Below, in pieces: positions 3,480-55,000 of a stretch of 64,000 bases of DNA; the stretch's first letter is position 1, and every line of letters begins with the position of its first letter. Location: assembly GCA_026770025.1 (NCBI GenBank), contig JAMXDE010000035.1:372001-436000 (forward strand). Direction: 5' to 3'. The stretch is from Craspedostauros australis (lineage: Eukaryota > Bacillariophyta > Bacillariophyceae > Mastogloiales > Achnanthaceae). The notes beneath the pieces are model-generated. The model was given only the letters and a program-made list of their open reading frames with translations. It made no database searches and had not been told where the DNA came from. Position numbers and translations under genes: made by a program.

Positions 3480-3530
3480 GTCAATAATGTAATTAAATTT
3501 AAATTTTACTCGCAAAGGCAACAAGCTGAC

Positions 3531-3607
3531 ATCAGAAGATTCCGGGTTCGAATCCCGGGCAGGTTTGTGATGACCTGTTGGCCCAACGGCAAGGCGTCTG
3601 ACTACGA
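3531..3607 (+). tRNA. trnR-ACG: Circularly permuted tRNA-Arg(ACG) gene
   Basis: The 3' half comes first: A38 at 3531, anticodon-stem strand TCAGA 3532-3536, variable AGATT 3537-3541, T-stem CCGGG 3542-3546, loop TTCGAAT 3547-3553, CCCGG 3554-3558, acceptor strand GCAGGTT 3559-3565 and discriminator 3566. After GTGAT (3567-3571) comes the 5' half: acceptor GACCTGT 3572-3578, U8-G9, D-arm 3581-3595 (GCC with GGC), G26, stem TCTGA 3597-3601 and loop CTACGA 3602-3607 with anticodon ACG at 3604-3606. Joining 3607 to 3531 gives a perfect 5-bp anticodon stem, a perfect T-stem and a 7-bp acceptor with G-U at both ends. The anticodon-arm sequence matches eukaryotic tRNA-Arg. The B box (3545-3555) precedes the A box (3579-3589). 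TTTT at 3613-3616 fits Pol III termination, and an AT-rich tract lies at 3486-3510. Loss of halves from a tandem pair is possible but would not leave complementary remnants meeting at 37/38. Confidence 0.85.
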
Positions 3608-3659
3608 TTTCATTTTGCGCCAGCTTTGCGCGTGCGATTCGCTTTGACTTCCTTTTGGG

Positions 3660-7590: not shown

Positions 7591-10500
7591 TCATTCTAGC
7601 TTGGCCTTCTGCCCACCGCCGTTGACTCGCAGACCTCTTCGGGTACCACACTGCCCGAAGGTGGAGGTCTCGACCGACTCGAACTGGCCACCGGACGCTA
7701 CGAGGGTTCCATCTACGGTGACGGTGTAACTGCCCTCGCCGTTGCTGCAGCAGATTCCGTCGTTGCGCGAATCGTTGATGGTGAACCTCAAGCAGGCAGA
7801 CTTTGAGACGCATATCTCCTTGGTGTAGAGTTGGATGGTGTTGTCGGCAAACGGACCATCTTGGAGGAGGACGTTGTCTCCATTCTTCAGCTCCCAGGTG
7901 GTTTCAGATCCATTGTTATCTGTCAGTAGTTCCACGCGGACCATGGACTCATCGGAGGCACAGGCACTCCAGTTGCTTCCAACTGAAGGTGCCGAAGTGG
8001 AGTAGCTTGTTGGGTTGTTTGTCAGCGTGCTTGTGGGCGCGCTCGTTGGTTTGCTTGTCGGGTTGTTTGTCGGGTTATTTGTCAGGTTGCTTGTGGGCGC
8101 GCTCGTTGGGTTGCTTGTCGGGTTGCTTGTCGGGTTGCTTGTCAGCGTGCTTGTGGACGCGCTTGTTGGATTGCTTGTCGGGTTGTTTGTCAGCGTGCTT
8201 GTTGGGTTGCTTGTTGGGTTGTTTGTCGGGTTGTTTGTCAGCTTGCTTGTGGGCGCGCTCGTTGGGTTGTTTGTCGGGTTATTTGTCAGGTTGCTTGTGG
8301 GCGCGCTCGTTGGGTGGCTTGTCGGGTTGCTTGTCGGGTTGCTTGTCAGCGTGCTTGTGGACGCGCTTGTTGGATTGCTTGTCGGGTTGTTTGTCAGCGT
8401 GCTTGTTGGGTTGCTTGTTGGGTTGCTTGTTGGGTTGTTTGTCGGGTTATTTGTCAGCTTGCTTGTGGGCGCGGTTGTTGGGTTGTTTGTCAGCGCGCTT
8501 GTTGGGTTGCTTGTCGGGTTGTTTGTCAGCTTGCTTGTGGGCGCGCTTGTTGGGTTGCTTGTTGGGTTGTTTGTCAGCGTGCTTGTGAGCGCGCTCGTTG
8601 GGTTGCTTGTTGGGTTGTTTGTCAGCGTGCTTGTGGGCGCGCTTGTTGGGTTGTTTATCAGCGTGCTTGTGGGCGCGCTTGATGGGTTGCTTGTTGGGTT
8701 GTTTGTCAGCTTGTTTGTGGGCGCGCTTGATGGGTTGCTTGTTGGGTTGCTTGTCAGCTTGTTTGTGGGCGCGCTTGATGGGTTGCTTGTTGGGTTGTTT
8801 GTCAGCTTGCTTGTGGGCGTGCTTGTTGGGCTGCTTGTCGGGTTTCTTGTCGAGTTGTTTGTCAGCATGCTTGTGGGCGCGCTCGTTGGGTTGTTTGTTG
8901 GGTTGCTTGTTGGGTTGTTTGTCAGCGTGCTTGTGGGCGCGCTTGTTGGGTTGCTGACTGGTGCGGCGGTGACTGGCAAAGCCGTGGGGAAAGGCACCGG
9001 ACCAGTCGTTGGCTGGCAATCTCTGATCTGGGTCGTCTCGGATGATTGGAATTCTCCTCCAGACTTTTGCAACACGCCGTCGACGAAGATCTTGTATGAT
9101 CCCTTCCCGACCTCGCAGCAGATTCCGTCACCATATGTGTCAACAATCATCATACTCAAGCAGGCAGACTTGGAGACGCATATCTCCTTGGTGTAGAGCT
9201 GGATGGTGTTGTCGGCAAACGGGCCATCTTGGAGGAGGACGTCGTCTCCATTCTTCAGCTCCCAGGTGGTTTCGGATCCGAAGTAATCTGTCAGTAGTTC
9301 CACGCGGACCATGGACTCATCGGATGCACAGGCATTCAAGTTACAATCTCCGACCAGGATCGTCTCAGTTGTTCCGAATTCTCCTCCAGTTATCTGCACC
9401 ATGCCATCGACGATAATCCTGTAGGATCCCCTACCGAAGCTGCAGCAGATTCCGTTGCCAATTGTGTCAGCAATCGTCATGCTCAAGCAGGCAGACTTGG
9501 AGACGCATATCTCCTTGGTGTAGAGCTGCTGAACGAAGTTGTCGGCAAACGGACCATCTTGGAGGAGGACGGTGTCTCCATTCTTCAGCTCCCAGGTGGT
9601 TTGGGATCCGTAGTAATCTGCCAATAGTTCCACGCGGACCATGGACTCATCGGATGCACAGGCACTCGAGTTGCTTCCAACTGCAGGTGCCGAAGTGGGG
9701 CTGCAATTTCCGATCTGGGTCGTCTCAATTGTTTCGAATTCTCCTCCAGACATCTGCACCACGCCATCGACGAAGATCTTGTATGATCCCCCACCTTTGC
9801 TGCAGCAGATTCCGTCACCATATGTGTCAGCAATCGTCATGCTCAAGCAGGCAGACTTGGAGACGCATATCTCCTTGGTGTAGAGCTGGAAAATGAAGTT
9901 GGGAAACGGGCCATCTTGGAGGAGGATGTTGTCTCTACTCTTCAGCTCCCAGGTGGTTTCTGATCCGCGGTAATCTGTCAGTAGTTCCACGCGGACCATG
10001 GACTCATCGGATGCACAGGCACTCGAGTTGCTTCCGACTGTAGGTGCCGAAGTGGGGCTGCAATTTCCGATCTGGGTCGTCTCACTTGTTTCGAATTCTC
10101 TTCCATACTTCTGCCGGACGCCGTCGACGAAGATCTGGTATGAACCATATCCTCCTGAGCAGCAGATTCCGTCACCATATGTGTCAACAATCGTCATGCT
10201 CAAGCAGACAAACTTGGGGACGCACATCTCCTTGGTGTAGCGCCGACGAAAGAAGTCGACGAACGGGCCATCTTGGAGGAGGACGTCGTCTCCATTCTTC
10301 AGCTCCCAGGTGGTTTCGGATCCGTAGTTATCTGTCGATAGTTCCACGCGGACCATGGACTCATCGGATGCACAGGCATTCAAGTTACAATCTCCGATCT
10401 GGGTGGTCTCAGTTCTTCCGAAGTCTCCTCCATACTTCTGCACCATGCCATCGACGATAATCCTGTAATATCCATCACCGTAGCTGCAACAAATTCCGTT

Positions 10501-13500: not shown

Positions 13501-15525
13501 TGTCATGTACTCGCCCGAGTTGCTGATCTCCGTAATCTTGAGGCCCGTCGGGTTGATGTTTCCATTCTGGTAACTGTCCGTGTTGGGGTGCTTGTTGGCC
13601 CCGATGTTGGGATCGTTGGACGGCAGGAGTTTGGTGACGCCGCGGCCGTGGAAGACATCGTTGGCATCGCCGTTGTTCTTCTCTTGCTCGAGATCGTATT
13701 GGCCATCTGCCTGCACCATCGCGATTCGGTAATGTTTGTTGTTTGTTGGCCAACCGGCCTGTCCTGGCCAGCCCTGGTCGTGCGGTTCCGCCTTCTTCTC
13801 GTCGATATGCCAGATGCAGAGACCGGCCTGTGGCATATTCTTGTCAGACTCGAGCTGTTGGCGGTTCTCAATCAGGAGGTACCTGCATCGAGGAGAGTTC
13901 GAAGGCATGTGGAGCATTGTACAAAAGTGTGAATGTGATTGAGGCTGTGAGCGTGTATGTACTTGAGCATCGACAGACCACAATTTGGAGAGGACAATTC
14001 GAAATATGAATCATAGCATGACATGGCAGTGCAATGAGGCGCACTTACTCTCCGGCTGGGTAGCCACCCTCGCCGTCTCCGATCTTGTAGATATCTCTGT
14101 TGGTTTGAACCGCCGTGATGGGGTTGACACCCTCACCGGGACGCTTGGGCGTGACCCAGTTCAGCGTGACCTTCGACCAAGCGGATGGGTGTGGCGGATG
14201 ATACTGGTCGCCTTCGAATCCCCAGCTGTTCGCCATGAGACCGAACGATCCGATGCCGCTGCCGTCATCGCCGTAATCATACAGATCTGGCAAGCCAAGG
14301 AAGTGCGCCATCTCGTGCGTGATCACGCCAACACGTCCGATCGCAGTTCCGGACGTGCTCCACAAACCAGGATTCGCGTGGTAGTCCTGGATCTCCACGT
14401 TGTCCCAGCTCGTGAACTTGTTGGTGAGGCTCCACTGGTGTGACCAGATGCGGTCCTTCTGGGCAGCGCCGAATCCATCCGGGTCCGAATCCGATTCGGC
14501 ACCGTATCCCGAATGGATGATGGTGAAACCGTCGATCCAGCCATCACCGTCAGCATCAAACTGCTTGAAGTCGAGGTTCTGGCCATTCAATATGTTCAGC
14601 GCATCTGTGATGCAGTCATGAATCACGGAGGTACCGCCGCTGCTGTTGTCGGCGCATGTCTTTTCCGTCTTGGGGATGGTGATCCACTCTGTCACAGTGG
14701 ATTCGACTGTGAGGAGGTCGTATGAGAACTGATGGTAGAAGTGCTTCATGGAGCCGCTCGGGGCAGATGCTGGCTTCTCTCCCTTCTCGGCATTCATCAA
14801 ATCTACGTACTCCTGACGTGTTGGCAGGGAACGGTTAGCGTGGTCCTGGAAACGAAGCAGGATGACCAAATTCTTGAGCGTGCCAGTGGTCGACGCAAGC
14901 CGACGCTGGCGATGTTCCCGCAATTCGCGATAATCTGGATGATCCTCGATCAAGTGACGGCCGGAGATGTGATGGATGTTGGTCTCCTTCGTCGGTTCCG
15001 TAAGATGGAGTGGCCATCCAGCTTCTTTGGGGTTGAAAGACCCCCCGACCTTGTGCTTGGAAGGCACGAGTGTGGTACCATCAGAGCACAGCTCAGCGTA
15101 CACATACTCATCGAGATCATTCAGCATGATGGTGTACCCTGAAACAAAGGGGGGAAAACAAGTATCGAGTGGAGAGATAAGCGAACGCATGGAGGTGAGT
15201 TATCGTGTACTCATAGCGTGTGTATTTGGACGGGTGAGCGACATCAACCACCAGTCACCGACATCGCCAATAATGGAGGAGATACGATAGATTTGGCGAC
15301 ACAGAAGACATCCATGCGTGCTGGTGACTCACCGTCCATGTCCGTAACGTCGTGATAGACCTCGTTACCGTGCATCCGAGCAGTGAAGGTGGAGCCATCG
15401 GCTTGCTTGAGTTGGATGGGGTTGGGATTGGCCATCATGGCGAGTGTTGGAGCTGTCATCCACGAGGAGGCAACGGCAGCAGCCGCCCACCCAAGCAATG
15501 TGCTCTTGGGGACGTTGAATCTCAT
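7591..15525 (-). CDS. Secreted M6-type metalloprotease with twelve near-identical C-terminal repeats
   Basis: Three exons join in phase: 15525-15333, 15138-14049 and 13882-7591, with introns 15332-15139 (GTGAGT...CAG) and 14048-13883 (GTAAGT...CAG), giving 2524 residues. Residues 1-30 form a signal peptide. The peptidase has HEMAHFLGLPDLYD at 339-352, fitting HExxHxxGxxD of family M6 (immune inhibitor A type). It also has a preceding DADGDGWIDGF calcium-type loop and, in exon 3, YLLIENRQ and GLCIWHID, which are typical of M6. The rest is one divergent and twelve near-identical ~105-residue domains, each opening CASDESMVRV, containing LLQDGPF and ending GDGICC...SYRIIVDG. A ~310-residue Ser/Thr/Pro/Asn linker (NPTSAPTS type) precedes the last domain, with shorter ones earlier. 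Four conserved Cys per domain suggest disulfides and an extracellular place. Substrate is unknown; the repeats may bind ligand or the cell wall. Confidence 0.85.
7985..8955. repeat. Minisatellite encoding the Ser/Thr/Pro/Asn linker
   Basis: About 1 kb of short units of 12 bases and multiples, read on the minus strand as N-P-T-S, A-P-T-S and L-T-N-N variants. Blocks of several units recur in higher-order order. It lies in frame inside exon 3 of the metalloprotease. A smaller stretch of the same type occurs at 12478-12545. Confidence 0.85.
9050..13000. repeat. Tandem coding repeats of the metalloprotease
   Basis: Eleven of the twelve similar ~310-350-base units, each encoding one CASDESMVRV...SYRIIVDG domain, lie in direct order here; the twelfth is at 7640-7975. 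Long runs match base for base between units, including at silent positions, which points to recent unequal exchange or gene conversion rather than selection on protein alone. Confidence 0.85.
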
Positions 15526-19968: not shown

Positions 19969-20176
19969 GTATCAGCACAAAACTGAATAGTGCTAAGTAC
20001 GTTACTCCCGTAGCCCCCACTATCTATAAATTTCACTTGTGTTCGGATCAGCAATCGCATCGCCTGTAGCTCAACGGTAGAGCACCAGTAATTCTAACTG
20101 AGGTTCCGGGTTCGAATCCCGGCATGGTACTTTGCTTTTGCTCACCCCTTGTGATTTTTCGATAGTGCTCTAATAG
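19969..20176 (+). repeat. 208-bp direct repeat, copy 1
   Basis: Identical to 20426-20633 (offset 457 throughout). It runs from GTATCAGCAC to GCTCTAATAG and contains a TATA box (20025-20030), a tRNA-like sequence and T-runs at 20136-20139 and 20154-20158. Confidence 0.9.
20060..20130 (+). tRNA. tRNA-like sequence, copy 1 (non-canonical)
   Basis: A perfect A box (TAGCTCAACGG, 20067-20077) and B box (GGTTCGAATCC, 20109-20119) stand at normal spacing. The D-stem (GCTC/GAGC) and T-stem (CCGGG/CCCGG) are perfect. The acceptor pairs in only about four of seven positions, and the anticodon loop reads AATTCTA on a 4-bp stem without U33, so the anticodon is uncertain (UCU by alignment with tRNA-Arg). 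TATAAA lies 30 bases upstream and TTTT follows. It may be a decayed tRNA, a tRNA-derived SINE or another Pol III RNA. Confidence 0.5.
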
Positions 20177-20425: not shown

Positions 20426-20633
20426 GTATCAGCACAAAACTGAATAGTGCTAAGTACGTTACTCCCGTAGCCCCCACTATCTATAAATTTCACTTGTGTT
20501 CGGATCAGCAATCGCATCGCCTGTAGCTCAACGGTAGAGCACCAGTAATTCTAACTGAGGTTCCGGGTTCGAATCCCGGCATGGTACTTTGCTTTTGCTC
20601 ACCCCTTGTGATTTTTCGATAGTGCTCTAATAG
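20426..20633 (+). repeat. 208-bp direct repeat, copy 2
   Basis: Identical to 19969-20176, with TATAAA at 20482-20487. No difference was found, so the duplication is recent. Confidence 0.9.
20517..20587 (+). tRNA. tRNA-like sequence, copy 2 (non-canonical)
   Basis: Identical to copy 1 at 20060-20130, with the same intact A and B boxes, weak acceptor pairing and unusual anticodon loop. Confidence 0.5.
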
Positions 20634-21900: not shown

Positions 21901-24900
21901 ATGAGCGAGGAAGAGGAACTGAAAGACATCCCTCTGTCCAATCCGGCTATCAAGAGAGAAGAAGGTGCGAGTGAGACTCCACCACGACAAGAGAAGGAAG
22001 CAGCCGCGGCTACTATCCTATCAAGCGCAGACGCAAGCGCGATCGACGAGACCGAAGAAGAACGGTCTGCAAGACTACACCGCGAGGAGAAGAGGATTCT
22101 CAAGGCGATCAAGCAAGAGGAGACTGGTGTGACGAAGAGCATTCGCACAGCCAAACAGGGTGGGAAAAGTGAGACACCACCAGGAGGAGAATTTGTGACG
22201 AAAACAATCTCCGCGCAACAACAGGCGAAAATCGAAGAATCGACAACACAGAAACAGACGGAAATCAAGGGCGCGAGCGCACCAACGACGAAACAACGAA
22301 TCAACATGGCGACATCAGCCAACGTGAACAAGCGACGCATCAAGGCGCCGATGTTCAGCGGTGAACAGGAAGACTACAGCGCATGGGAGTCCCAAGCGAA
22401 GGCATACGCTCGTGCACAGAAGACGAGAGACGTGATGTTGGGCAAGACCAAGGTGCCAACAGTGAGCGAGATCGCGGCAGCCGCCGATGAAGACAAGGAA
22501 GCGATGGAGGAGATCTACGAGCTGGGATGCGATTGCTTCAGCGATCTGATCCTCATGATGGATGCAGAGAAAGGAAAGGGCAAGCAAGCCATCCAATACA
22601 TCAACCAATGCATCTCCGTCGACTACCCCGAAGGAGACGCACACGGAGCGTGGAACGTTCTCGCGGAGAAGTTCCGACCATCCGACGCGGTGACGAAGAT
22701 CAAACTCAAGCGCCAATTCAACAACGAAAAGATGAAGAGAGACACGGACCCCGACATCTACATCACACAACTCGAGAGTCTACGATCGCGTCTCCACGAT
22801 GTCAAGTACGAGATCACAGACGAGGAAATGATCATGCAGATTCTCAGCACGGTGAGCGTGGAATACAAAACCCACGTCGTGAACTTCCAACACCAACTCA
22901 CGTTCAATCCGGAACTGGTTACCATCAACGCGATCAGAGGAGTACTCCGTACTGCATACGCTACCCACAGAGGAGGCAAAGCATACGTCGACGACTTCCA
23001 AGACAGTAACACGAAGAGCAACGACACCGGCTTCACAAGCACCGGTAACTTCAAGGGTACTTGTCACAACTGTGGCGTGTATGGTCATAGATCCGCCGAT
23101 TGCCCAGAACGCAAGAAACCGAACAACAAGAAAAACAACAACAACAACAACAAGATGAACGGAAAGCGCAACAAGGGAAGCGGCTTCAAGGGCAAGTGCA
23201 ACTACTGCGGCATCTTCGGACACCGCGAGGCGGAGTGTCGAAAGAAGAAGTTCAACGAGAAGAAGAACAACGAACAAGCCAACGCGGCTACGGAAGGACA
23301 CGACAAGAGCGGGCACGAGATGGTACTCTCTGCGAAGGACATGCCGCTCTGCATGTTGGTGTCCGACGACTACATCGAAGACTCCTTCTTCGATAACTTC
23401 GAATACGTCGGGAGTGACGACGAAGTACAGGATGATGAGATCATCCCGGAGTGGCTCAGCGAGGAGCCAATCATCCACGAGGTGGATCCAAGACGCGAAG
23501 TGAGCTACGAATGCTGCTTCAACGCGCACGACCTGATCGGTTCATACGGCGACGAAGCTGAGATGGACGACGAGGCCAACGATAGCGACATCGAAGAGGC
23601 CATGAGCGATGACGACGACGCCGACGAGGACGGCGCAGACGAAGACAATGAGGCGGACCGCGGCGCGGCGCCTCCTCCTCCAGCGGCGGGGAACAACAGA
23701 TCGGGCATCTTCGACGAGGATGACAGCGACGAATCCGAGGACGGCAATCATCCAGACGACAGCTTCAATCCAAACGAGCGTGTCGTGTACCCAGGGAATA
23801 TCGACTTCCCACCAATCGAGGATCCCAACAGGTCCAACTACCTCCATCGCCATGACACCATCCCATATGCAACAGAAACAGCATTGGTGATCCAGAAGCA
23901 ACTCATCTTCGATGCAATGATGGAAGCAGGAGTGAGCCTGTTCCCAGGAATCGAACGAGGAGTACTCAGACCGATATGGGTCAACATGATGGGATCCATC
24001 CTATCCGAGAACTTCAGATCGATTGAAGAGATTCTCGCCAATTCAGTTGTGATCAATCGCATACTGGAAGCAGCCGAGACAGAGACAATCCCAGAGACGG
24101 ATCTTCATTACATCCTTGGGGGATGTATGCGCGTACTCTTACGCGAACGACCACGGGTCCATCCATACGATCCAGCCACAGGATCTCATCGGAACAGTAC
24201 GATTCCATCGGACTACGCGCAACTACCCGATGACATGGATGACGGAGATCATCATCCTCCATACAACGAAGATGGAGTCCACGAAGACGATGATGACGGC
24301 AGCTTCAACGACGAGATAGCTGCGGCAGCTGTGGAGCAACTCCACGAGCTGAGCACCAAGTACAAGGACAAGGTCAACAAGGACACCTGGCTCGCCGACA
24401 GCGGAGCTTCGTGTCACATCGTCAATTCAGACGCCGCTCTCTTCAACGTGCGGCACATCAAGTCCTTCGTCCAAGTGGGAGACAGCACGAAGCTGGATTC
24501 TCCCAAGATGGGATCCATTCGCTTGAAAGTCAAACAGCGAAACAACACTGGCCACATCATCCGGCTCGATGACGTGAAGTACACACCGAAAATGGCGGTG
24601 AACCTTTTCTCCACGAACAAGGCTCTGTACAACGGTTACCAACTTGGTAACAATGGCATTCTGATGGACATCATCAACGGATCCGGAATGAAGATCGTGT
24701 TCGATCGAGTCTTCCCCACATCCAACGGATTCATCACGGGAGTGCAGATGCATCCCATCATGCCAACAGACGACGACAAAGCTTGCACAGCTATCGTCAA
24801 GAATCCATCCAAGGAGATCAGCGCGGTGAACCTGCACCGAATGCTCGGCCACGCGCCACTCGAGACCATGAAGCGGACGGCCGCTCAGTACGGATGGAAA

Positions 24901-27900
24901 ATCATCGGCGAGATGCCGGTGTGTCGTGACTGCGCGGTCGCGAACGCAAGAGTGAAGAATATTCCGAAGGCAACTATTCCAAGAGCTACTCGCCGCGGCG
25001 AACGGTTCTTCATTGACATTAGTTATACTAAACACATAAGCTTCGGAGATAAACGCTACTGGACCCTGATCGTGGACGACTACACTGATCACTGCTGGAG
25101 TTTCTTCCTCAAGAACAAGAGTGATCAACCAGGATACATCAAACGATTCATCCAGACGATCAAGTCACAGACTGGTGACCAACAGATCATCTTCCGAGGT
25201 GACAACAGCGGAGAGAACAAATCCACGGAGGATATTCTCATCGATGCAGGACTCAACGTGAAATTCGAATACACGGCATCGAACACGCCGCAACAGAACG
25301 GTAGAGTGGAACGCAAGTTCGCGTACCTCTACACCAAGATTCGCTCCATGCTCAACGGAGCACAGCTCGACGAAGAGTATAGGCATGGCCTGTGGGCAGC
25401 AGCTGCTAGCACTGCCACTGCTATCGCCAATATCACCGTAGCGAAGAACCAGAAGGAGTCACCACATCGACAATTCTTCGGCAACGATCCACCATATGCG
25501 GACGCGCTCCGCACATTTGGAGAGGTGGGTGTTGTGAAGACTACCTACGGCGGGATCACCGCCAAACTCAAGAACAGAGGAGAAGAGATGGTGTTCATCG
25601 GATATGCACACCAACATGCATCAGGAGTCTACAACATGTATAGACCATCGACCAAGTCACTCATCTGTTCACGGGACATCAAGTGGCTCAACCAATCATA
25701 CGGACAGTTCCGTGGTTGGGCACCAGCACCGAACATATCCAACGAAACAGGAACAACGGACGCAGACGGCTTCACAACCATCGGACGAAAGGGAGCAACG
25801 CCAAGGACGGCAACGCGTCAAACATCGGAAGCGAAGAGAGTATCTTTCGCTGACAGCAACAGGTACTACATCCTATCAGACAGTGATGACGAGGATAATG
25901 AGGACGACGGAGTAGTGACTCAACTAATCCAGAATGACGAGGAAGATCGGAACGAATCCAATCATGAGGATGACGAAATCCTACCCTCCGGCGACGAAGC
26001 CGATGACGAGACAGGTGTCACTCCTCCGAACACACCAGCAAGGTCTACATATGACACACCATCTAGATCTCCACCAAGCAAACCAAACAAGCGTGACATA
26101 GCTAGAAAGGAGAGGATCCGACGTCACGAAGCACGAGGCAGGAAGGGAGAAGCTAATCCCAAGTCAACTGCAGGGAAGAGTATTCCCAGAGCTCTGCGTG
26201 AGCTCGCAGACTTCAACGAACGAGGTCGAAAGGAAGAAGGCTATGAGAGCGATCCATCATCCAGTGAGGCGAGTGACGAACTCAGCGACGAGATGATCGA
26301 CGATTCCAACAACGAAACTACAGATGACGAAGAAATCGAAAACGAAGATGAAGAGATCGAGATCACTCACTATAGCACAACAGGACTATACGGAATGAAT
26401 GCAATCGTCACCGAGAAACCAGCGATCGACATCGGACTGTCGATGCAGGACGAGAATAAGGAACCAGAGAAGCACATCGAACCTACAACATTCGATGGAG
26501 CCTTCAATCACCCAGATCCTATCCATCGGAAGGGATATCGAGCAGCCATCAAGAAAGAGTTCGACTCCATGGATACACGCAAGGTATACAGTAAGATCAA
26601 ACGAGACGCCATCCCACGCGGCCGCAGATGTTGCAAGTGCAAATGGGTCTTCAAGCTGAAACGTGACGGCACACATCGAGCGCGGCTCGTTGCATGTGGC
26701 TATTCACAAGTCGCAGGAGTAGACTTCCAAGAGCATTACTCACCCGTCATCCATGACGTGACCTATCGGGTCATGATGGTGATCATGCTAATCAAGAAGA
26801 TGGACTGCGCACTCGTCGATGTCGTAACGGCATTCCTACATGGAGACCTCGACGAGGAGATCTACATGAACTGTCCCAATGGGATGGATCATCAACCAGA
26901 CGAAGCCCTGACCCTACACAAGCCAATCTACGGACTTGTGCAGAGCGCCAGGCAATGGTTCAAGATGTTGGTATCGACCCTCAAGAATATCAACTTCGAA
27001 CAGAGCGCAGCAGACCCGTGCCTGTTCTACAGGAAGACGAACGAAGGAAGCATGATCGTGGCCATCTACGTGGACGATTGCTTCTGTTGCGGAGACTCCA
27101 AGGCACTAGAGACATTCCTGAAGGACATCCAAGGCAGCAAATTCAAGGTGACAATCGAGCGCGGACTCGGAGACTACCTCAGCTGCAACATCGAATTGAA
27201 CCATGACAAGACTAGAGCGACATTGCGTCAACCACATCTCATCCGACACCTCATCGAAGAATTCGGAGCCAAGGTTGAGAAGATGCAACGTTATGGGACA
27301 CCGGGAACCCCGGGTCAAATCATCGTACGACCATCCGAAGATAACGGACTACAGAAGGTCGGACCGGAAGAACATGCCGAATACCGCCGAGGCGTCGGTA
27401 TGCTACTCTTCCTCATCAAGCACTCGCGACCAGACATCGCGAACCCTGTGAGGGAACTCTCCAAGGTATTGATCGGGCCCACCAAGGCCGCAATGAAGGA
27501 GATGTATCGGATCATCAAGTATGTGATCGATACAAAGGACTATGGATTGAAGATCCATCCAGCGCGTCCAGATGACGACGGCTGGGACATGGAGCTCTTC
27601 TGCGATAGCGAATATGCAGGAGACAAGAATACAAGAATCAGCGTAGGGGGATTCATCCTATACCTGTGCAAGGTACCAATCCTTTGGCGATCCAAGGCAC
27701 AGAAGGCCGTCACACTCAGCTCATCCGAAGCAGAATACGTTGCCCTTTCCGAAGCGGCAAAGGAGATCTTCTTCGTTGTGCAGCTACTCGAAAGTGTGGG
27801 CGTCCCAGTGAAGACACCGATCAAGGTCCGCGTGGACAACATCGGGGCGATCTTCATCGCCAAGAATCCATCAACATCCCAACGATCGCGGCACATCGAC

Positions 27901-28065
27901 GTGCGCCATCACTACGTGAGGAATATGGTAATCAACAAAACCATCGAAATCATTTTCGTCAAATCCGAGCAGAACACAAGCGACGGATTCACCAAGAACA
28001 TCAAGGCCGACTTACAACGTGAACATGAGAAGTCGTACCTTGACACATCGAGAACATTCGAATGA
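21901..28065 (+). CDS. Gag-Pol polyprotein of Copia A1
   Basis: One frame of 2054 residues. In order: a gag region, two CCHC zinc knuckles (about 385-440), a very acidic stretch followed by a compact extra domain (about 490-800), a DSGAS aspartic protease, GAG-pre-integrase, an integrase core, a second acidic linker, a Copia reverse transcriptase with YVDD, and RNase H (SSSEAEYVALSEAAKE). Gene order PR-IN-RT-RH defines Ty1/Copia. A single frame means Gag and Pol would not need frameshifting. Confidence 0.95.
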   Translation: MSEEEELKDIPLSNPAIKREEGASETPPRQEKEAAAATILSSADASAIDETEEERSARLHREEKRILKAIKQEETGVTKSIRTAKQGGKSETPPGGEFVTKTISAQQQAKIEESTTQKQTEIKGASAPTTKQRINMATSANVNKRRIKAPMFSGEQEDYSAWESQAKAYARAQKTRDVMLGKTKVPTVSEIAAAADEDKEAMEEIYELGCDCFSDLILMMDAEKGKGKQAIQYINQCISVDYPEGDAHGAWNVLAEKFRPSDAVTKIKLKRQFNNEKMKRDTDPDIYITQLESLRSRLHDVKYEITDEEMIMQILSTVSVEYKTHVVNFQHQLTFNPELVTINAIRGVLRTAYATHRGGKAYVDDFQDSNTKSNDTGFTSTGNFKGTCHNCGVYGHRSADCPERKKPNNKKNNNNNNKMNGKRNKGSGFKGKCNYCGIFGHREAECRKKKFNEKKNNEQANAATEGHDKSGHEMVLSAKDMPLCMLVSDDYIEDSFFDNFEYVGSDDEVQDDEIIPEWLSEEPIIHEVDPRREVSYECCFNAHDLIGSYGDEAEMDDEANDSDIEEAMSDDDDADEDGADEDNEADRGAAPPPPAAGNNRSGIFDEDDSDESEDGNHPDDSFNPNERVVYPGNIDFPPIEDPNRSNYLHRHDTIPYATETALVIQKQLIFDAMMEAGVSLFPGIERGVLRPIWVNMMGSILSENFRSIEEILANSVVINRILEAAETETIPETDLHYILGGCMRVLLRERPRVHPYDPATGSHRNSTIPSDYAQLPDDMDDGDHHPPYNEDGVHEDDDDGSFNDEIAAAAVEQLHELSTKYKDKVNKDTWLADSGASCHIVNSDAALFNVRHIKSFVQVGDSTKLDSPKMGSIRLKVKQRNNTGHIIRLDDVKYTPKMAVNLFSTNKALYNGYQLGNNGILMDIINGSGMKIVFDRVFPTSNGFITGVQMHPIMPTDDDKACTAIVKNPSKEISAVNLHRMLGHAPLETMKRTAAQYGWKIIGEMPVCRDCAVANARVKNIPKATIPRATRRGERFFIDISYTKHISFGDKRYWTLIVDDYTDHCWSFFLKNKSDQPGYIKRFIQTIKSQTGDQQIIFRGDNSGENKSTEDILIDAGLNVKFEYTASNTPQQNGRVERKFAYLYTKIRSMLNGAQLDEEYRHGLWAAAASTATAIANITVAKNQKESPHRQFFGNDPPYADALRTFGEVGVVKTTYGGITAKLKNRGEEMVFIGYAHQHASGVYNMYRPSTKSLICSRDIKWLNQSYGQFRGWAPAPNISNETGTTDADGFTTIGRKGATPRTATRQTSEAKRVSFADSNRYYILSDSDDEDNEDDGVVTQLIQNDEEDRNESNHEDDEILPSGDEADDETGVTPPNTPARSTYDTPSRSPPSKPNKRDIARKERIRRHEARGRKGEANPKSTAGKSIPRALRELADFNERGRKEEGYESDPSSSEASDELSDEMIDDSNNETTDDEEIENEDEEIEITHYSTTGLYGMNAIVTEKPAIDIGLSMQDENKEPEKHIEPTTFDGAFNHPDPIHRKGYRAAIKKEFDSMDTRKVYSKIKRDAIPRGRRCCKCKWVFKLKRDGTHRARLVACGYSQVAGVDFQEHYSPVIHDVTYRVMMVIMLIKKMDCALVDVVTAFLHGDLDEEIYMNCPNGMDHQPDEALTLHKPIYGLVQSARQWFKMLVSTLKNINFEQSAADPCLFYRKTNEGSMIVAIYVDDCFCCGDSKALETFLKDIQGSKFKVTIERGLGDYLSCNIELNHDKTRATLRQPHLIRHLIEEFGAKVEKMQRYGTPGTPGQIIVRPSEDNGLQKVGPEEHAEYRRGVGMLLFLIKHSRPDIANPVRELSKVLIGPTKAAMKEMYRIIKYVIDTKDYGLKIHPARPDDDGWDMELFCDSEYAGDKNTRISVGGFILYLCKVPILWRSKAQKAVTLSSSEAEYVALSEAAKEIFFVVQLLESVGVPVKTPIKVRVDNIGAIFIAKNPSTSQRSRHIDVRHHYVRNMVINKTIEIIFVKSEQNTSDGFTKNIKADLQREHEKSYLDTSRTFE

Positions 28066-46000: not shown

Positions 46001-49000
46001 ATACCTGATGCAGAAGTCGAGGGCCTGGGCGGAAAGGATACGGACGTCGCGAATCCAACGACAGGATGTCGAAATCGCTGCCAAGGCAGTCCTATGGCCG
46101 GCGCTCTCGTACTCCGCCCCTGCCACGACAATGTCCCGGTCGCAATGGGAGCGCGTGATGAGTGCGGCTCTCACAACAGCGCTGCCGTCAATGGGCATCG
46201 CCCGAACCATTGCTAGGGACTACGTCTTCGGGCATGTGGATGTCATGGGGTTCGGAATGCAACACTTGTACTACGGCCAAGTGGTAGCGCACCTGTCCAT
46301 GATCATGAAGCACTTCGAACAGCCAACGGCGACAGGACGACTGCTCCGCGCGTCTTTGCGTCACCTCGAACTATGGACTGGTCTCCCAGGCGCACTCCAG
46401 CAAACGGAGCATGAATGGAGGGCGTGGACCAGCCCAACGTGGTGGCAGAACACATTCCAGTCTGCAGCCGACATCGGCATCACCATGACCGACCTCGACC
46501 ATCCCAATTCGCTGCCGCGGGAAGGAGACGACACAGTCATGAATCTGGCGATCAGCGCCGGTGTGCACAGAAACACTCTCGCCTTGGCCAATGTGGCTAG
46601 ACTGCATCTGAGAGTGCTGTGGCTGTCAGACATCGCAACAGCTCAGGGCGACCGAATCCGGTCTCAGATCCTACAGCGCATCCGACTACCAGCTGGCCGG
46701 ATTTGCTGGCCGAAGGTAGGGACAGTCTCCAAGAAGGCGTGGGAAGCGTGGGACCAAGTGTTGACGGCGCTTGCGGCGACTGACCGCCCCGGGTGGCACA
46801 TACGACGACGGCTTGGACCATGGCGCACTGTCCCGCCAAGGCGTGAGTCTATGCGACCCGACGGATCGGTGTCCACGCCAGGCCTGCCCGCAATGCCCAG
46901 CAGCTCTCCCACAACACCGGTCGAGGTGATTGACCGAGCGCCCCGACGATCTGGAATGGCCATCACGTCCCGAGGACGCATCGCGCGGCAGCTGCTTCCC
47001 ACCACGCTGAGAGCATGGATGCACCAGAAGGGACCGGCTGCAGTGCGAATTCTCGCGGATGTGCACGTCCTCGGAGAGATACACTCGATTGTGCGATCCA
47101 TAACAGAGGGTACGTGCTCCGCGTGCAGCGATGCTTCAGCCAAACACAACCACGGATCGGCAGCTGCGGTCATCCAGCGCGACCCCAACGACAACCGGCA
47201 CCAGATGCTTGCGATGTCAGCCGTGCCAGAGGGATCGCACCCCACCGACTCCAACCGTGCTGAGCTCGCTGGAGTGCTAATGTCAGTGTGGATGATCACG
47301 TCGGTGGCTGAATGGGCAAGCATACGCGGGCAAGCCACCATCGCTTGCGACAACAACCGGGCGCTGCGAGCTGTGGACCCAACGCAATGGCCAGACCCCA
47401 ACAAGCCTGTTGGCAAGTTCCGCTCACGGTAACCTACGATCGTGGAAGATGGTGTTGGTTGATAGTCGTTTGTTTGCTATTTCATTACGTTGGCACTCCG
47501 ATACTCTCGGTGTCCGTTCGTTCTCTTGCCCGATGCTCTCGGCGCTTCAATCTGTTTCGTAGATTCGGTCTCCGACTATGAGTCGGTACGCGAGATCCTC
47601 TCTCTCTCGTTCCTTTCTGTATTCTCTCTCTCTCTCAACATCGTGTGCTCATGCTACACGATACTCCGTGTTCGATGCTTGCTCCGCATCCGAAACTCCG
47701 TTCATTCAGTACTGGCTTCTACTCCATGAGTACTTACCATTTGAAGTTCACCTTCAGTATCCATGATCTTCATGGGTCATCGTATCTTCGCCTCCTGCTC
47801 TGACTTGGAGACAGCTGTCGACGTGGTGACATGTTGACATCCTGTTGACGTCAGTAGGCGTCCTTCTGCTCTCCAGATGTCACGTTCCATTGGTGATGCA
47901 GTAGTCTGTCAGATGATATCGTCATCTGAGGTTTAGTTGGGAAGTACCTCGAGATTCTCTTGGTACCATTGATGGATGGACGGATGATCTTCTGATTCTC
48001 TCAGAAATCGTTATTTGCAAATTTCCTCCAGAAATCTTGCCCCTTTTTGTGTGTTCCATTTCCCCTGTAATTCTGACGAATCACAGTATACTATCGACAC
48101 GAGTATAGTTATACCGTCCAAGTGCGTATGAGAGAATAGCGGGTGAACGATGCACATATACACGTACATCTTGACATATACTCACATGTACATCTCGACA
48201 CCCTTCCTGTGTGCATTCGGTCATTCGAATGTTCTCGATGTGTCAAGGTACGACTTCTCATGTTCACGTTGTAAGTCGGCCTTGATGTTCTTGGTGAATC
48301 CGTCGCTTGTGTTCTGCTCGGATTTGACGAAAATGATTTCGATGGTTTTGTTGATTACCATATTCCTCACGTAGTGATGGCGCACGTCGATGTGCCGCGA
48401 TCGTTGGGATGTTGATGGATTCTTGGCGATGAAGATCGCCCCGATGTTGTCCACGCGGACCTTGATCGGTGTCTTCACTGGGACGCCCACACTTTCGAGT
48501 AGCTGCACAACGAAGAAGATCTCCTTTGCCGCTTCGGAAAGGGCAACGTATTCTGCTTCGGATGAGCTGAGTGTGACGGCCTTCTGTGCCTTGGATCGCC
48601 AAAGGATTGGTACCTTGCACAGGTATAGGATGAATCCCCCTACGCTGATTCTTGTGTTCTTGTCTCCTGCATATTCGCTATCGCAGAAGAGTTCCATGTC
48701 CCAGCCGTCGTCATCTGGACGCGCTGGATGGATCTTCAATCCATAGTCCTTTGTATCGATCACATACTTAATGATCCGATACATCTCCTTCATTGCGGCC
48801 TTGGTGGGCCCGATCAATACCTTGGAGAGTTCCCTCACAGGGTTCGCGATGTCTGGTCGCGAGTGCTTGATGAGGAAGAGTAGCATACCGACGCCTCGGC
48901 GGTATTCGGCATGTTCTTCCGGTCCGACCTTCTGTAGTCCGTTATCTTCGGATGGTCGTACGATGATTTGACCCGGGGTTCCCGGTGTCCCATAACGTTG

Positions 49001-52000
49001 CATCTTCTCAACCTTGGCTCCGAATTCTTCGATGAGGTGTCGGATGAGATGTGGTTGACGCAATGTCGCTCTAGTCTTGTCATGGTTCAATTCGATGTTG
49101 CAGCTGAGGTAGTCTCCGAGTCCGCGCTCGATTGTCACCTTGAATTTGCTGCCTTGGATGTCCTTCAGGAATGTCTCTAGTGCCTTGGAGTCTCCGCAAC
49201 AGAAGCAATCGTCCACGTAGATGGCCACGATCATGCTTCCTTCGTTCGTCTTCCTGTAGAACAGGCACGGGTCTGCTGCGCTCTGTTCGAAGTTGATATT
49301 CTTGAGGGTCGATACCAACATCTTGAACCATTGCCTGGCGCTCTGCACAAGTCCGTAGATTGGCTTGTGTAGGGTCAGGGCTTCGTCTGGTTGATGATCC
49401 ATCCCATTGGGACAGTTCATGTAGATCTCCTCGTCGAGGTCTCCATGTAGGAATGCCGTTACGACATCGACGAGTGCGCAGTCCATCTTCTTGATTAGCA
49501 TGATCACCATCATGACCCGATAGGTCACGTCATGGATGACGGGTGAGTAATGCTCTTGGAAGTCTACTCCTGCGACTTGTGAATAGCCACATGCAACGAG
49601 CCGCGCTCGATGTGTGCCGTCACGTTTCAGCTTGAAGACCCATTTGCACTTGCAACATCTGCGGCCGCGTGGGATGGCGTCTCGTTTGATCTTACTGTAT
49701 ACCTTGCGTGTATCCATGGAGTCGAACTCTTTCTTGATGGCTGCTCGATATCCCTTCCGATGGATAGGATCTGGGTGATTGAAGGCTCCATCGAATGTTG
49801 TAGGTTCGATGTGCTTCTCTGGTTCCTTATTCTCGTCCTGCATCGACAGTCCGATGTCGATCGCTGGTTTCTCGGTGACGATTGCATTCATTCCGTATAG
49901 TCCTGTTGTGCTATAGTGAGTGATCTCGATCTCTTCATCTTCGTTTTCGATTTCTTCGTCATCTGTAGTTTCGTTGTTGGAATCGTCGATCATCTCGTCG
50001 CTGAGTTCGTCACTCGCCTCACTGGATGATGGATCGCTCTCATAGCCTTCTTCCTTTCGACCTCGTTCGTTGAAGTCTGCGAGCTCACGCAGAGCTCTGG
50101 GAATACTCTTCCCTGCAGTTGACTTGGGATTAGCTTCTCCCTTCCTGCCTCGTGCTTCGTGACGTCGGATCCTCTCCTTTCTAGCTATGTCACGCTTGTT
50201 TGGTTTGCTTGGTGGAGATCTAGATGGTGTGTCATATGTAGACCTTGCTGGTGTGTTCGGAGGAGTGACACCTGTCTCGTCATCGGCTTCGTCGCCGGAG
50301 GGTAGGATTTCGTCATCCTCATGATTGGATTCGTTCCGATCTTCCTCGTCATTCTGGATTAGTTGAGTCACTACTCCGTCGTCCTCATTATCCTCGTCAT
50401 CACTGTCTGATAGGATGTAGTACCTGTTGCTGTCAGCGAAAGATACTCTCTTCGCTTCCGATGTTTGACGCGTTGCCGTCCTTGGCGTTGCTCCCTTTCG
50501 TCCGATGGTTGTGAAGCCGTCTGCGTCCGTTGTTCCTGTTTCGTTGGATATGTTCGGTGCTGGTGCCCAACCACGGAACTGTCCGTATGATTGGTTGAGC
50601 CACTTGATGTCCCGTGAACAGATGAGTGACTTGGTCGATGGTCTATACATGTTGTAGACTCCTGATGCATGTTGGTGTGCATATCCGATGAACACCATCT
50701 CTTCTCCTCTGTTCTTGAGTTTGGCGGTGATCCCGCCGTAGGTAGTCTTCACAACACCCACCTCTCCAAATGTGCGGAGCGCGTCCGCATATGGTGGATC
50801 GTTGCCGAAGAATTGTCGATGTGGTGACTCCTTCTGGTTCTTCGCTACGGTGATATTGGCGATAGCAGTGGCAGTGCTAGCAGCTGCTGCCCACAGGCCA
50901 TGCCTATACTCTTCGTCGAGCTGTGCTCCGTTGAGCATGGAGCGAATCTTGGTGTAGAGGTACGCGAACTTGCGTTCCACTCTACCGTTCTGTTGCGGCG
51001 TGTTCGATGCCGTGTATTCGAATTTCACGTTGAGTCCTGCATCGATGAGAATATCCTCCGTGGATTTGTTCTCTCCGCTGTTGTCACCTCGGAAGATGAT
51101 CTGTTGGTCACCAGTCTGTGACTTGATCGTCTGGATGAATCGTTTGATGTATCCTGGTTGATCACTCTTGTTCTTGAGGAAGAAACTCCAGCAGTGATCA
51201 GTGTAGTCGTCCACGATCAGGGTCCAGTAGCGTTTATCTCCGAAGCTTATGTGTTTAGTATAACTAATGTCAATGAAGAACCGTTCGCCGCGGCGAGTAG
51301 CTCTTGGAATAGTTGCCTTCGGAATATTCTTCACTCTTGCGTTCGCGACCGCGCAGTCACGACACACCGGCATCTCGCCGATGATTTTCCATCCGTACTG
51401 AGCGGCCGTCCGCTTCATGGTCTCGAGTGGCGCGTGGCCGAGCATTCGGTGCAGGTTCACCGCGCTGATCTCCTTGGATGGATTCTTGACGATAGCTGTG
51501 CAAGCTTTGTCGTCGTCTGTTGGCATGATGGGATGCATCTGCACTCCCGTGATGAATCCGTTGGATGTGGGGAAGACTCGATCGAACACGATCTTCATTC
51601 CGGATCCGTTGATGATGTCCATCAGAATGCCATTGTTACCAAGTTGGTAACCGTTGTACAGAGCCTTGTTCGTGGAGAAAAGGTTCACCGCCATTTTCGG
51701 TGTGTACTTCACGTCATCGAGCCGGATGATGTGGCCAGTGTTGTTTCGCTGTTTGACTTTCAAGCGAATGGATCCCATCTTGGGAGAATCCAGCTTCGTG
51801 CTGTCTCCCACTTGGACGAAGGACTTGATGTGCCGCACGTTGAAGAGAGCGGCGTCTGAATTGACGATGTGACACGAAGCTCCGCTGTCGGCGAGCCAGG
51901 TGTCCTTGTTGACCTTGTCCTTGTACTTGGTGCTCAGCTCGTGGAGTTGCTCCACAGCTGCCGCAGCTATCTCGTCGTTGAAGCTGCCGTCATCATCGTC

Positions 52001-55000
52001 TTCGTGGACTCCATCTTCGTTGTATGGAGGATGATGATCTCCGTCATCCATGTCATCGGGTAGTTGCGCGTAGTCCGATGGAATCGTACTGTTCCGATGA
52101 GATCCTGTGGCTGGATCGTATGGATGGACCCGTGGTCGTTCGCGTAAGAGTACGCGCATACATCCCCCAAGGATGTAATGAAGATCCGTCTCTGGGATTG
52201 TCTCTGTCTCGGCTGCTTCCAGTATGCGATTGATCACAACTGAATTGGCGAGAATCTCTTCAATCGATCTGAAGTTCTCGGATAGGATGGATCCCATCAT
52301 GTTGACCCATATCGGTCTGAGTACTCCTCGTTCGATTCCTGGGAACAGGCTCACTCCTGCTTCCATCATTGCATCGAAGATGAGTTGCTTCTGGATCACC
52401 AATGCTGTTTCTGTTGCATATGGGATGGTGTCATGGCGATGGAGGTAGTTGGACCTGTTGGGATCCTCGATTGGTGGGAAGTCGATATTCCCTGGGTACA
52501 CGACACGCTCGTTTGGATTGAAGCTGTCGTCTGGATGATTGCCGTCCTCGGATTCGTCGCTGTCATCCTCGTCGAAGATGCCCGATCTGTTGTTCCCCGC
52601 CGCTGGAGGAGGAGGCGCCGCGCCGCGGTCCGCCTCATTGTCTTCGTCTGCGCCGTCCTCGTCGGCGTCGTCGTCATCGCTCATGGCCTCTTCGATGTCG
52701 CTATCGTTGGCCTCGTCGTCCATCTCAGCTTCGTCGCCGTATGAACCGATCAGGTCGTGCGCGTTGAAGCAGCATTCGTAGCTCACTTCGCGTCTTGGAT
52801 CCACCTCGTGGATGATTGGCTCCTCGCTGAGCCACTCCGGGATGATCTCATCATCCTGTACTTCGTCGTCACTCCCGACGTATTCGAAGTTATCGAAGAA
52901 GGAGTCTTCGATGTAGTCGTCGGACACCAACATGCAGAGCGGCATGTCCTTCGCAGAGAGTACCATCTCGTGCCCGCTCTTGTCGTGTCCTTCCGTAGCC
53001 GCGTTGGCTTGTTCGTTGTTCTTCTTCTCGTTGAACTTCTTCTTTCGACACTCCGCCTCGCGGTGTCCGAAGATGCCGCAGTAGTTGCACTTGCCCTTGA
53101 AGCCGCTTCCCTTGTTGCGCTTTCCGTTCATCTTGTTGTTGTTGTTGTTGTTTTTCTTGTTGTTCGGTTTCTTGCGTTCTGGGCAATCGGCGGATCTATG
53201 ACCATACACGCCACAGTTGTGACAAGTACCCTTGAAGTTACCGGTGCTTGTGAAGCCGGTGTCGTTGCTCTTCGTGTTACTGTCTTGGAAGTCGTCGACG
53301 TATGCTTTGCCTCCTCTGTGGGTAGCGTATGCAGTACGGAGTACTCCTCTGATCGCGTTGATGGTAACCAGTTCCGGATTGAACGTGAGTTGGTGTTGGA
53401 AGTTCACGACGTGGGTTTTGTATTCCACGCTCACCGTGCTGAGAATCTGCATGATCATTTCCTCGTCTGTGATCTCGTACTTGACATCGTGGAGACGCGA
53501 TCGTAGACTCTCGAGTTGTGTGATGTAGATGTCGGGGTCCGTGTCTCTCTTCATCTTTTCGTTGTTGAATTGGCGCTTGAGTTTGATCTTCGTCACCGCG
53601 TCGGATGGTCGGAACTTCTCCGCGAGAACGTTCCACGCTCCGTGTGCGTCTCCTTCGGGGTAGTCGACGGAGATGCATTGGTTGATGTATTGGATGGCTT
53701 GCTTGCCCTTTCCTTTCTCTGCATCCATCATGAGGATCAGATCGCTGAAGCAATCGCATCCCAACTCGTAGATCTCCTCCATCGCTTCCTTGTCTTCATC
53801 GGCGGCTGCCGCGATCTCGCTCACTGTTGGCACCTTGGTCTTGCCCAACATCACGTCTCTCGTCTTCTGTGCACGAGCGTATGCCTTCGCTTGGGACTCC
53901 CATGCGCTGTAGTCTTCCTGTTCACCGCTGAACATCGGCGCCTTGATGCGTCGCTTGTTCACGTTGGCTGATGTCGCCATGTTGATTCGTTGTTTCGTCG
54001 TTGGTGCGCTCGCGCCCTTGATTTCCGTCTGTTTCTGTGTTGTCGATTCTTCGATTTTCGCCTGTTGTTGCGCGGAGATTGTTTTCGTCACAAATTCTCC
54101 TCCTGGTGGTGTCTCACTTTTCCCACCCTGTTTGGCTGTGCGAATGCTCTTCGTCACACCAGTCTCCTCTTGCTTGATCGCCTTGAGAATCCTCTTCTCC
54201 TCGCGATGTAGTCTTGCAGACCGTTCTTCTTCGGTCTCGTCGATCGCGCTTGCGTCTGCGCTTGATAGGATAGTAGCCGCGGCTGCTTCCTTCTCTTGTC
54301 GTGGTGGAGTCTCACTCGCACCTTCTTCTCTCTTGATAGCCGGATTGGACAGAGGGATGTCTTTCAGTTCCTCTTCCTCGCTCATTCAGCCTGTCGCTCT
54401 TGAATGATGTTCGTCTTCCTCGCACGATACGATTCGCGGGCTCGCCCTGATCTATCGTTTATAAACGTGTTGGCAAGTTCCGCTCACGGTAACCTACGAT
54501 CGTGGAAGATGGTGTTGGTTGATAGTCGTTTGTTTGCTATTTCATTACGTTGGCACTCCGATACTCTCGGTGTCCGTTCGTTCTCTTGCCCGATGCTCTC
54601 GGCGCTTCAATCTGTTTCGTAGATTCGGTCTCCGACTATGAGTCGGTACGCGAGATCCTCTCTCTCTCGTTCCTTTCTGTATTCTCTCTCTCTCTCAACA
54701 TCGTGTGCTCATGCTACACGATACTCCGTGTTCGATGCTTGCTCCGCATCCGAAACTCCGTTCATTCAGTACTGGCTTCTACTCCATGAGTACTTACCAT
54801 TTGAAGTTCACCTTCAGTATCCATGATCTTCATGGGTCATCGTATCTTCGCCTCCTGCTCTGACTTGGAGACAGCTGTCGACGTGGTGACATGTTGACAT
54901 CCTGTTGACGTCAGTAGGCGTCCTTCTGCTCTCCAGATGTCACGTTCCATTGGTGATGCAGTAGTCTGTCAGATGATATCGTCATCTGAGGTTTAGTTGG

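Follow-up and report, generated by a model that had tools for sequence, protein, structure and literature searches.

Is a tRNA gene whose 3′ half precedes its 5′ half a working gene in a diatom nucleus, and does the cell have any other source of that tRNA? The question is raised by a 77-nt segment (positions 3531–3607, forward strand) of a 64,000-nt stretch of Craspedostauros australis DNA (GenBank assembly GCA_026770025.1, contig JAMXDE010000035.1, positions 372,001–436,000), hereafter called the window. The segment reads as a circularly permuted tRNA-Arg(ACG) gene of type II, with its junction at 37/38. From the sequence comparisons described below, we consider it highly probable that this is a functional nuclear gene, that it belongs to a set of five dispersed copies which jointly appear to be the sole source of tRNA-Arg(ACG), and that its product is matured via a circular intermediate.

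The layout can be read directly from the window. The 3′ half (3531–3566, forward strand, as are all features of the gene; ATCAGAAGATTCCGGGTTCGAATCCCGGGCAGGTTT) runs from A38 through the 3′ strand of the anticodon stem, the variable loop, the T-arm and the 3′ strand of the acceptor stem to the discriminator base U73. It is followed by the spacer GTGAT (3567–3571), which joins the discriminator to G1, and then by the 5′ half (3572–3607; GACCTGTTGGCCCAACGGCAAGGCGTCTGACTACGA), comprising the 5′ strand of the acceptor stem, the D-arm, the 5′ strand of the anticodon stem and the loop up to A37. In this order the segment that we take to be the B box (GGTTCGAATCC, 3545–3555) lies 5′ of the one that we take to be the A box (TGGCCCAACGG, 3579–3589). 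When the halves are rejoined at 37/38, ARAGORN calls a tRNA-Arg(acg) of 72 nt with the anticodon loop CTACGAA and the anticodon ACG at positions 3604–3606, and U8, G18G19, U33 and TTC are all present in the rejoined cloverleaf. An ACG anticodon is expected to be converted to ICG, where I is inosine. The original prediction, made from the letters alone, had given the same boundaries, spacer, tRNA identity and order of the two boxes, as well as a diatom-like host, and all of these hold. It had also described the stems as perfect, a term that fits the anticodon stem and the T-stem alone, since the acceptor stem, which is complete, includes two wobble pairs (G1-U72 and U7-G66) and the D-stem closes with a C13/A22 mismatch, ARAGORN drawing three D-stem pairs. 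No CCA is encoded, a likeness with the type II genes of Cyanidioschyzon merolae.

Searches for tRNA genes in their usual order do not detect this gene. ARAGORN found no tRNA in the unrotated window, and in an Rfam scan nothing at the permuted locus attained its gathering score, the tRNA family aligning with the T-arm only (14.3 bits). In the source assembly (74,831,031 bases in 90 contigs), a query of 181 bases around the gene returned five loci on five contigs (C33, which holds the window, C41, C43, C14 and C3; all five candidates were scored), every one in the same permuted order. The 72 tRNA nucleotides, 36 in each half, are identical in all five copies. Identity among the copies begins at A38 and ends at A37 in each case, so that the junction is always exactly 37/38. 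The spacers are 5 or 6 nt long and all distinct (GTGAT in the window; CTGGA, GCGGAA, CTGGT and CTCGGT in the others), and none of the five contains a promoter or a terminator between the acceptor ends. Outside the gene the copies do not resemble one another: ungapped identity is 22–40% across 60 nt upstream and 25–42% across 40 nt downstream, and blastn comparison of ∼1.5 kb on each side, with the gene masked, gave no match at corresponding distances in any of the 10 pairs (best chance match, E 0.002; four pairs without any match). These diverged flanks and spacers rule out recent duplication as the source of the identity. Since the tRNA parts are identical while spacers and flanks differ, the pattern points to selection and not to recent copying. 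We read the five copies as old, or as having arrived as bare units, with the tRNA part alone held constant, because the flanks show no similarity at matching distances.

To what extent could the resemblance to a tRNA be fortuitous? A covariance model (R2) was built from 10 tRNAs of the same genome (seven nuclear and three mitochondrial), rotated into permuted form with random spacers; Arg(ACG) and the similar Arg(TCT) were left out of the training set. In a search of the window and 26 loci (144,219 bases), the five permuted genes ranked 1–5 of 53 matches with 53.8–55.1 bits, corresponding to an E-value of ∼1e-15 over that search space, E-values of this model being rough. The remaining 48 matches scored 13.2–32.2 bits and overlap either ordinary tRNA genes or a tRNA-like repeat near 20 kb. 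Chance resemblance is ruled out by these scores together with the existence of five loci.

The top Rfam match at the locus was not a tRNA but the Y RNA-like family YrlA (RF02553, 18.9 bits), whose model, aligned here, shows T-arm, second stem and D-like arm in the same succession. The locus might instead encode some other RNA that folds like a permuted tRNA. We regard this as barely credible: the match has an E-value of 0.16 and lies far below the gathering score of 69, the conserved part stops exactly at 37 and 38 and yields a full anticodon arm with the loop CTACGAA and the anticodon ACG, and the sequence outside the two halves is unrelated among the five copies.

The flanks, where the copies otherwise differ, hold some conserved signals. 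Among the 12 leader positions −12 to −1, only −3 is invariant, being G in five of five copies (position 3528 in the window). Assuming independence and a G frequency of 0.19–0.25, as in the leaders, the probability of this by our arithmetic is ≤0.001. In eukaryotic tRNA splicing, according to the available part of PMC8479045, the 3′ cut requires an anticodon–intron (A–I) pair, which a purine at −3 relative to the 3′ site forms with a pyrimidine at −6 relative to the 5′ site, the latter being position 32 of the tRNA. The base at position 32 is C, and a C32:G−3 pair could form in all five copies, making G−3 a possible partner in an A–I pair. Further upstream, ∼24–40 nt 5′ of A38, the window contains an AT-rich, TATA-like stretch (3491–3507), a putative external promoter element for RNA polymerase III (Pol III). 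Between −40 and −31, A and T make up on average 88% of the sequence in the five permuted copies compared with 71% in 20 ordinary nuclear tRNA genes (the nuclear members of 30 loci from the tRNA search, the 10 organellar ones being excluded), and this share drops to 44–54% in bins past −100. Downstream, a run of four T begins 6 nt past A37 (3613–3616) and is a putative Pol III terminator. Every copy has a run of 4–7 T that begins between +4 and +8, counted from A37, as against 2.8% of random positions at the same loci; a comparable run begins within 12 nt in 17 of the 20 ordinary genes.

These signals bear on whether the five loci might be unexpressed pseudogenes, derived either from tandem tRNA genes whose outer halves disappeared or from permuted fragments that were retro-inserted. 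Both routes have a basis in published origin models, one in which a tandem duplication later loses its outer halves and one in which a permuted or circular RNA is reverse-transcribed (PMC3978253, in its available part). The proposal is nonetheless very improbable in view of 72 of 72 nucleotides being identical in all five copies while every spacer and flank has diverged, and of the retention of G−3 and the T-run in all five. In addition, 20 tests for half-gene remnants in the 1 kb to each side detected none, one score equalling the 95% level of shuffled sequences and the others falling below it, and no ordinary gene that could have replaced the permuted ones was found. The lack of half remnants within 1 kb and a spacer of just 5–6 nt also rule out that an ordinary gene, in tandem or with an intron, has been mistaken for a permuted one.

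How might such a gene give rise to a tRNA? For the functional permuted gene we propose the following steps, which we infer from the maturation route that PMC3978253, in its available part, sets out for C. merolae and green algae. Pol III would be recruited mainly by the upstream AT-rich, TATA-like element and would produce a short linear transcript consisting of leader, 3′ half, spacer of 5 or 6 nt, 5′ half and U-run. This transcript could fold into an inside-out cloverleaf, in which the spacer closes the acceptor stem and the anticodon loop is open; the pairing potential is present in the sequence, and folding of the full precursor is presumed. The tRNA-splicing endonuclease would then recognize the mature domain and C32:G−3 and cut after A37 and before A38, a ligase would join 37 to 38 to give a circle, and RNase P and tRNase Z would excise the spacer. 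CCA addition and conversion of A34 to inosine would presumably complete the tRNA. The order of spacer removal and circularization is not readable from the sequence. Alternatively, the gene is functional and no circle arises: RNase P and tRNase Z first take out the spacer of 5–6 nt, after which endonuclease and ligase trim and join halves that are held together non-covalently. The linear precursor would already offer the acceptor stem, the T-stem, G1 and the discriminator as recognition elements, and the sequence is neutral as to which step comes first; even so, we think this route unlikely. As to the enzymes, the catalytic domain of the tRNA endonuclease has two matches in the genome, one of 43.7 bits and one of 25.2 bits. 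The latter is under the Pfam cut-off, and its homologues carry the name tRNA intron endonuclease. Among the 96 relatives of a nuclear tRNA-endonuclease homologue, two bear a species in their name, Nitzschia inconspicua in one case and Fragilaria crotonensis in the other.

We next consider whether tRNA-Arg(ACG) could come from anywhere else. When the genome was searched with the 72-nt collinear form, this form matched as halves only, and each of the 10 matches fell at one of the five permuted loci (again all five candidates were scored). The contiguous anticodon arm TCTGACTACGAATCAGA, which an ordinary gene would contain, has no place in the genome with zero or one mismatch. With two mismatches it has 11 places, compared with five for a reversed control, and ARAGORN found no tRNA in the eight of those 11 that were made into loci. 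Other arginine tRNA genes in the usual order were recovered, namely nuclear Arg(TCG) at two loci and Arg(TCT) at one. Rfam tRNA scoring covered 63 of 1610 candidates. From these searches the five permuted loci are likely the only source of tRNA-Arg(ACG) in the genome. The codons that this tRNA would read, CGU and CGC, were present in all five open frames counted, which were mechanically defined open reading frames (ORFs) and included one copia element.

Several observations weigh against the reading of a functional, sole-source gene with a circular intermediate. The first concerns folding. The 77-nt permuted core has a z-score of −1.13, with 27 of 200 shuffled sequences folding equally well, and values for the joined tRNA are similar (−1.15; 26 of 200). 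With short flanks added to the core the z-score is −0.81 and the minimum-energy fold lacks the anticodon stem. When 8 nt of leader are included, the minimum-energy fold retains every cloverleaf stem in three of the five copies, and when the leader is extended to 30 nt this fold lies 8–16 kcal/mol below the drawn cloverleaf. Folding energies alone thus do not pick out the structure and give it no support. Second, the central helix of the bulge–helix–bulge (BHB) motif is weak beyond C32:G−3. The motif is present only in part, since 0–2 further consecutive pairs are available and the lone C32:G−3 pair costs 2.6–2.8 kcal/mol in the energy model, which did not select it. Third, U73 and G1-U72 are slightly unusual, yet the ordinary tRNA-Arg(TCG) of the same genome also has G1-U72. 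Fourth, no tRNA ligase was found: RtcB had no match in the whole genome, whereas it had matches in nine of 14 control genomes, and ligation would therefore need another ligase. The Trl1-type ligase domain and Tau95 of TFIIIC likewise gave no match, but no control genome matched either of them, so that this result is uninformative. Finally, the check for ordinary tRNA-Arg(ACG) genes elsewhere, which the original prediction had suggested, returned none, an outcome in favor of that prediction, but a divergent one could have been missed. Two tRNA test queries gave no match, and because one of these was an initiator tRNA, which must exist in some form, the DNA search evidently misses divergent tRNAs.

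If the five loci are the only source, what follows for the organism? The permuted-tRNA processing pathway may be essential in C. australis, because no ordinary tRNA-Arg(ACG) gene was found. Beyond this, we lean toward a broader view, held with less assurance than the reading of the gene itself: that CGU and CGC can be read in C. australis, and possibly across diatoms, by just one tRNA, for which all genes are permuted, that translation of these codons would depend wholly on circularization, and that the family spread to five dispersed loci while already permuted. If true, permutation would be a stable, propagated gene architecture and not a rare single-copy accident. The five copies also amount to a natural mutagenesis experiment, which singles out A38, A37, G−3 and the T-run as the precursor positions of importance and makes the processing rules directly testable. 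In practical terms, a tRNA finder built on the assumption of the usual order can overlook entire isoacceptors in the genomes of algae, as the result of ARAGORN with the window illustrates.

Pattern searches of other collections gave candidates that were rejected. A gapped permuted-Arg pattern matched an IMG/VR contig, where the match consists of two tandem ordinary phage tRNAs (Thr and Val), and a GTDB contig, where it is a degenerate tRNA-like stretch in a bacterial metagenome-assembled genome (MAG) with no tRNA called by ARAGORN; neither is permuted. A second pattern found nothing in IMG/VR. These two contigs may also be recorded in their own right. The bacterial MAG contig, labelled Peptococcaceae, appears to hold repeated degenerate tRNA-like units at 2680–2830, uncalled by ARAGORN, and the viral contig, 10.8 kb long, carries 21 clustered tRNA genes at 7896–9908, including a tRNA-Arg(acg), with the tandem Thr–Val pair that mimics a permuted gene in the pattern search.

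The window holds a further tRNA-like sequence, in the repeat near 20 kb. Two identical direct repeats of 208 nt (19,969–20,176 and 20,426–20,633, forward strand) lie 457 nt apart from start to start, and each contains a tRNA-like sequence, scored at 35.4 bits by RF00005, which is preceded by a TATA-like stretch. In the genome as a whole, the best 40 of 135 candidates for this repeat were scored, and 26 of these 40 make 13 pairs with starts 452–466 nt apart. Judged from the repeats and the tRNA-like part alone, the pair looks like a terminal-repeat retrotransposon in miniature (TRIM) with a tRNA-like sequence in its long terminal repeats, as in Helenus. Helenus is reported from fungi, animals and plants, and diatoms are unmentioned in the available part of the source (PMC10886601). 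Elsewhere in the window are three ORFs of 2053–2054 amino acids (21,901–28,065, forward; 48,221–54,385, reverse; 56,549–62,710, forward), the first of which is a copia-type polyprotein with gag, zinc knuckle and RVT_2, and an ORF of 381 amino acids (14,045–15,190, reverse) in which a domain of the peptidase M6 (immune inhibitor A) type scores 65.4 bits. As for the organelles, contig C90 of the assembly carries plastid genes and C83 mitochondrial genes, and C89 repeats the tRNA set of C83. Among chains with one matched stretch, the best matches of PsaD were PDB 6l4u, 8xls and 8zeh and those of PsbV 8iwh and 6jlu, which we take to be photosystems of Chaetoceros gracilis and Thalassiosira pseudonana; the highest summed score for PsaD belongs to 9vfj, a longer chain with three matched repeats. 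Taken with the species names among the endonuclease relatives, these matches make a diatom host very probable.

Are genes of this kind known elsewhere? In its available part, PMC3978253 describes 34 permuted genes, from one red alga, four prasinophytes, one nucleomorph and one archaeon; its Table 1 has no Arg(ACG) entry, and the available text contains no mention of diatom, Thalassiosira, Phaeodactylum, stramenopile or heterokont. Later additions, as given in the accessible portions of their sources, are Auxenochlorella and the Amorphochlora nucleomorph. A literature search for permuted tRNA genes in diatoms and stramenopiles, confined to papers readable without subscription, found no diatom report. 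Thus the kind of gene is already known, and its lineage, isotype and five-copy family are new as far as our searches go. Diatoms would be another major eukaryotic lineage with permuted tRNA genes.

The closest likeness, going by the same part of PMC3978253, is to the type II genes of the red alga C. merolae, such as Gln(CTG), Thr(AGT) and two Gly(CCC), in which the 3′ half also comes first, the junction is at 37/38 and no CCA is encoded. Most of them have a TATA-like element within 50 bp upstream, with a T-stretch downstream, and the two Gly(CCC) genes have identical mature sequences. The diatom genes differ from these in their isotype, in a spacer of 5–6 nt as against 7–31 (PMC3978253, Table 1) and in their five dispersed copies. 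The genes of the prasinophytes Ostreococcus and Micromonas are likewise nuclear, have the junction at 37/38 in 18 of the 19 genes listed and are AT-rich upstream in some cases, but their isotypes are Ser, Leu, Cys, Asn, Arg(TCT) and iMet and their spacers measure 11–64 nt (PMC3978253, available part). For the remaining systems we likewise relied on the accessible portions of the sources. The permuted tRNA genes of Auxenochlorella are nuclear, like those of the diatom. The tRNA-Ser genes of the chlorarachniophytes Bigelowiella natans and Amorphochlora amoebiformis share the 37/38 junction and, in B. natans, a 5-nt spacer; in contrast to the diatom genes they reside in the nucleomorph and are of this isotype only, and in these sources none is recorded as detected in two Lotharella species. 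The archaeon Thermofilum pendens shares the permuted order and short spacers (1 and 7 nt), but its junction is at 59/60, CCA is encoded and extra introns are present.
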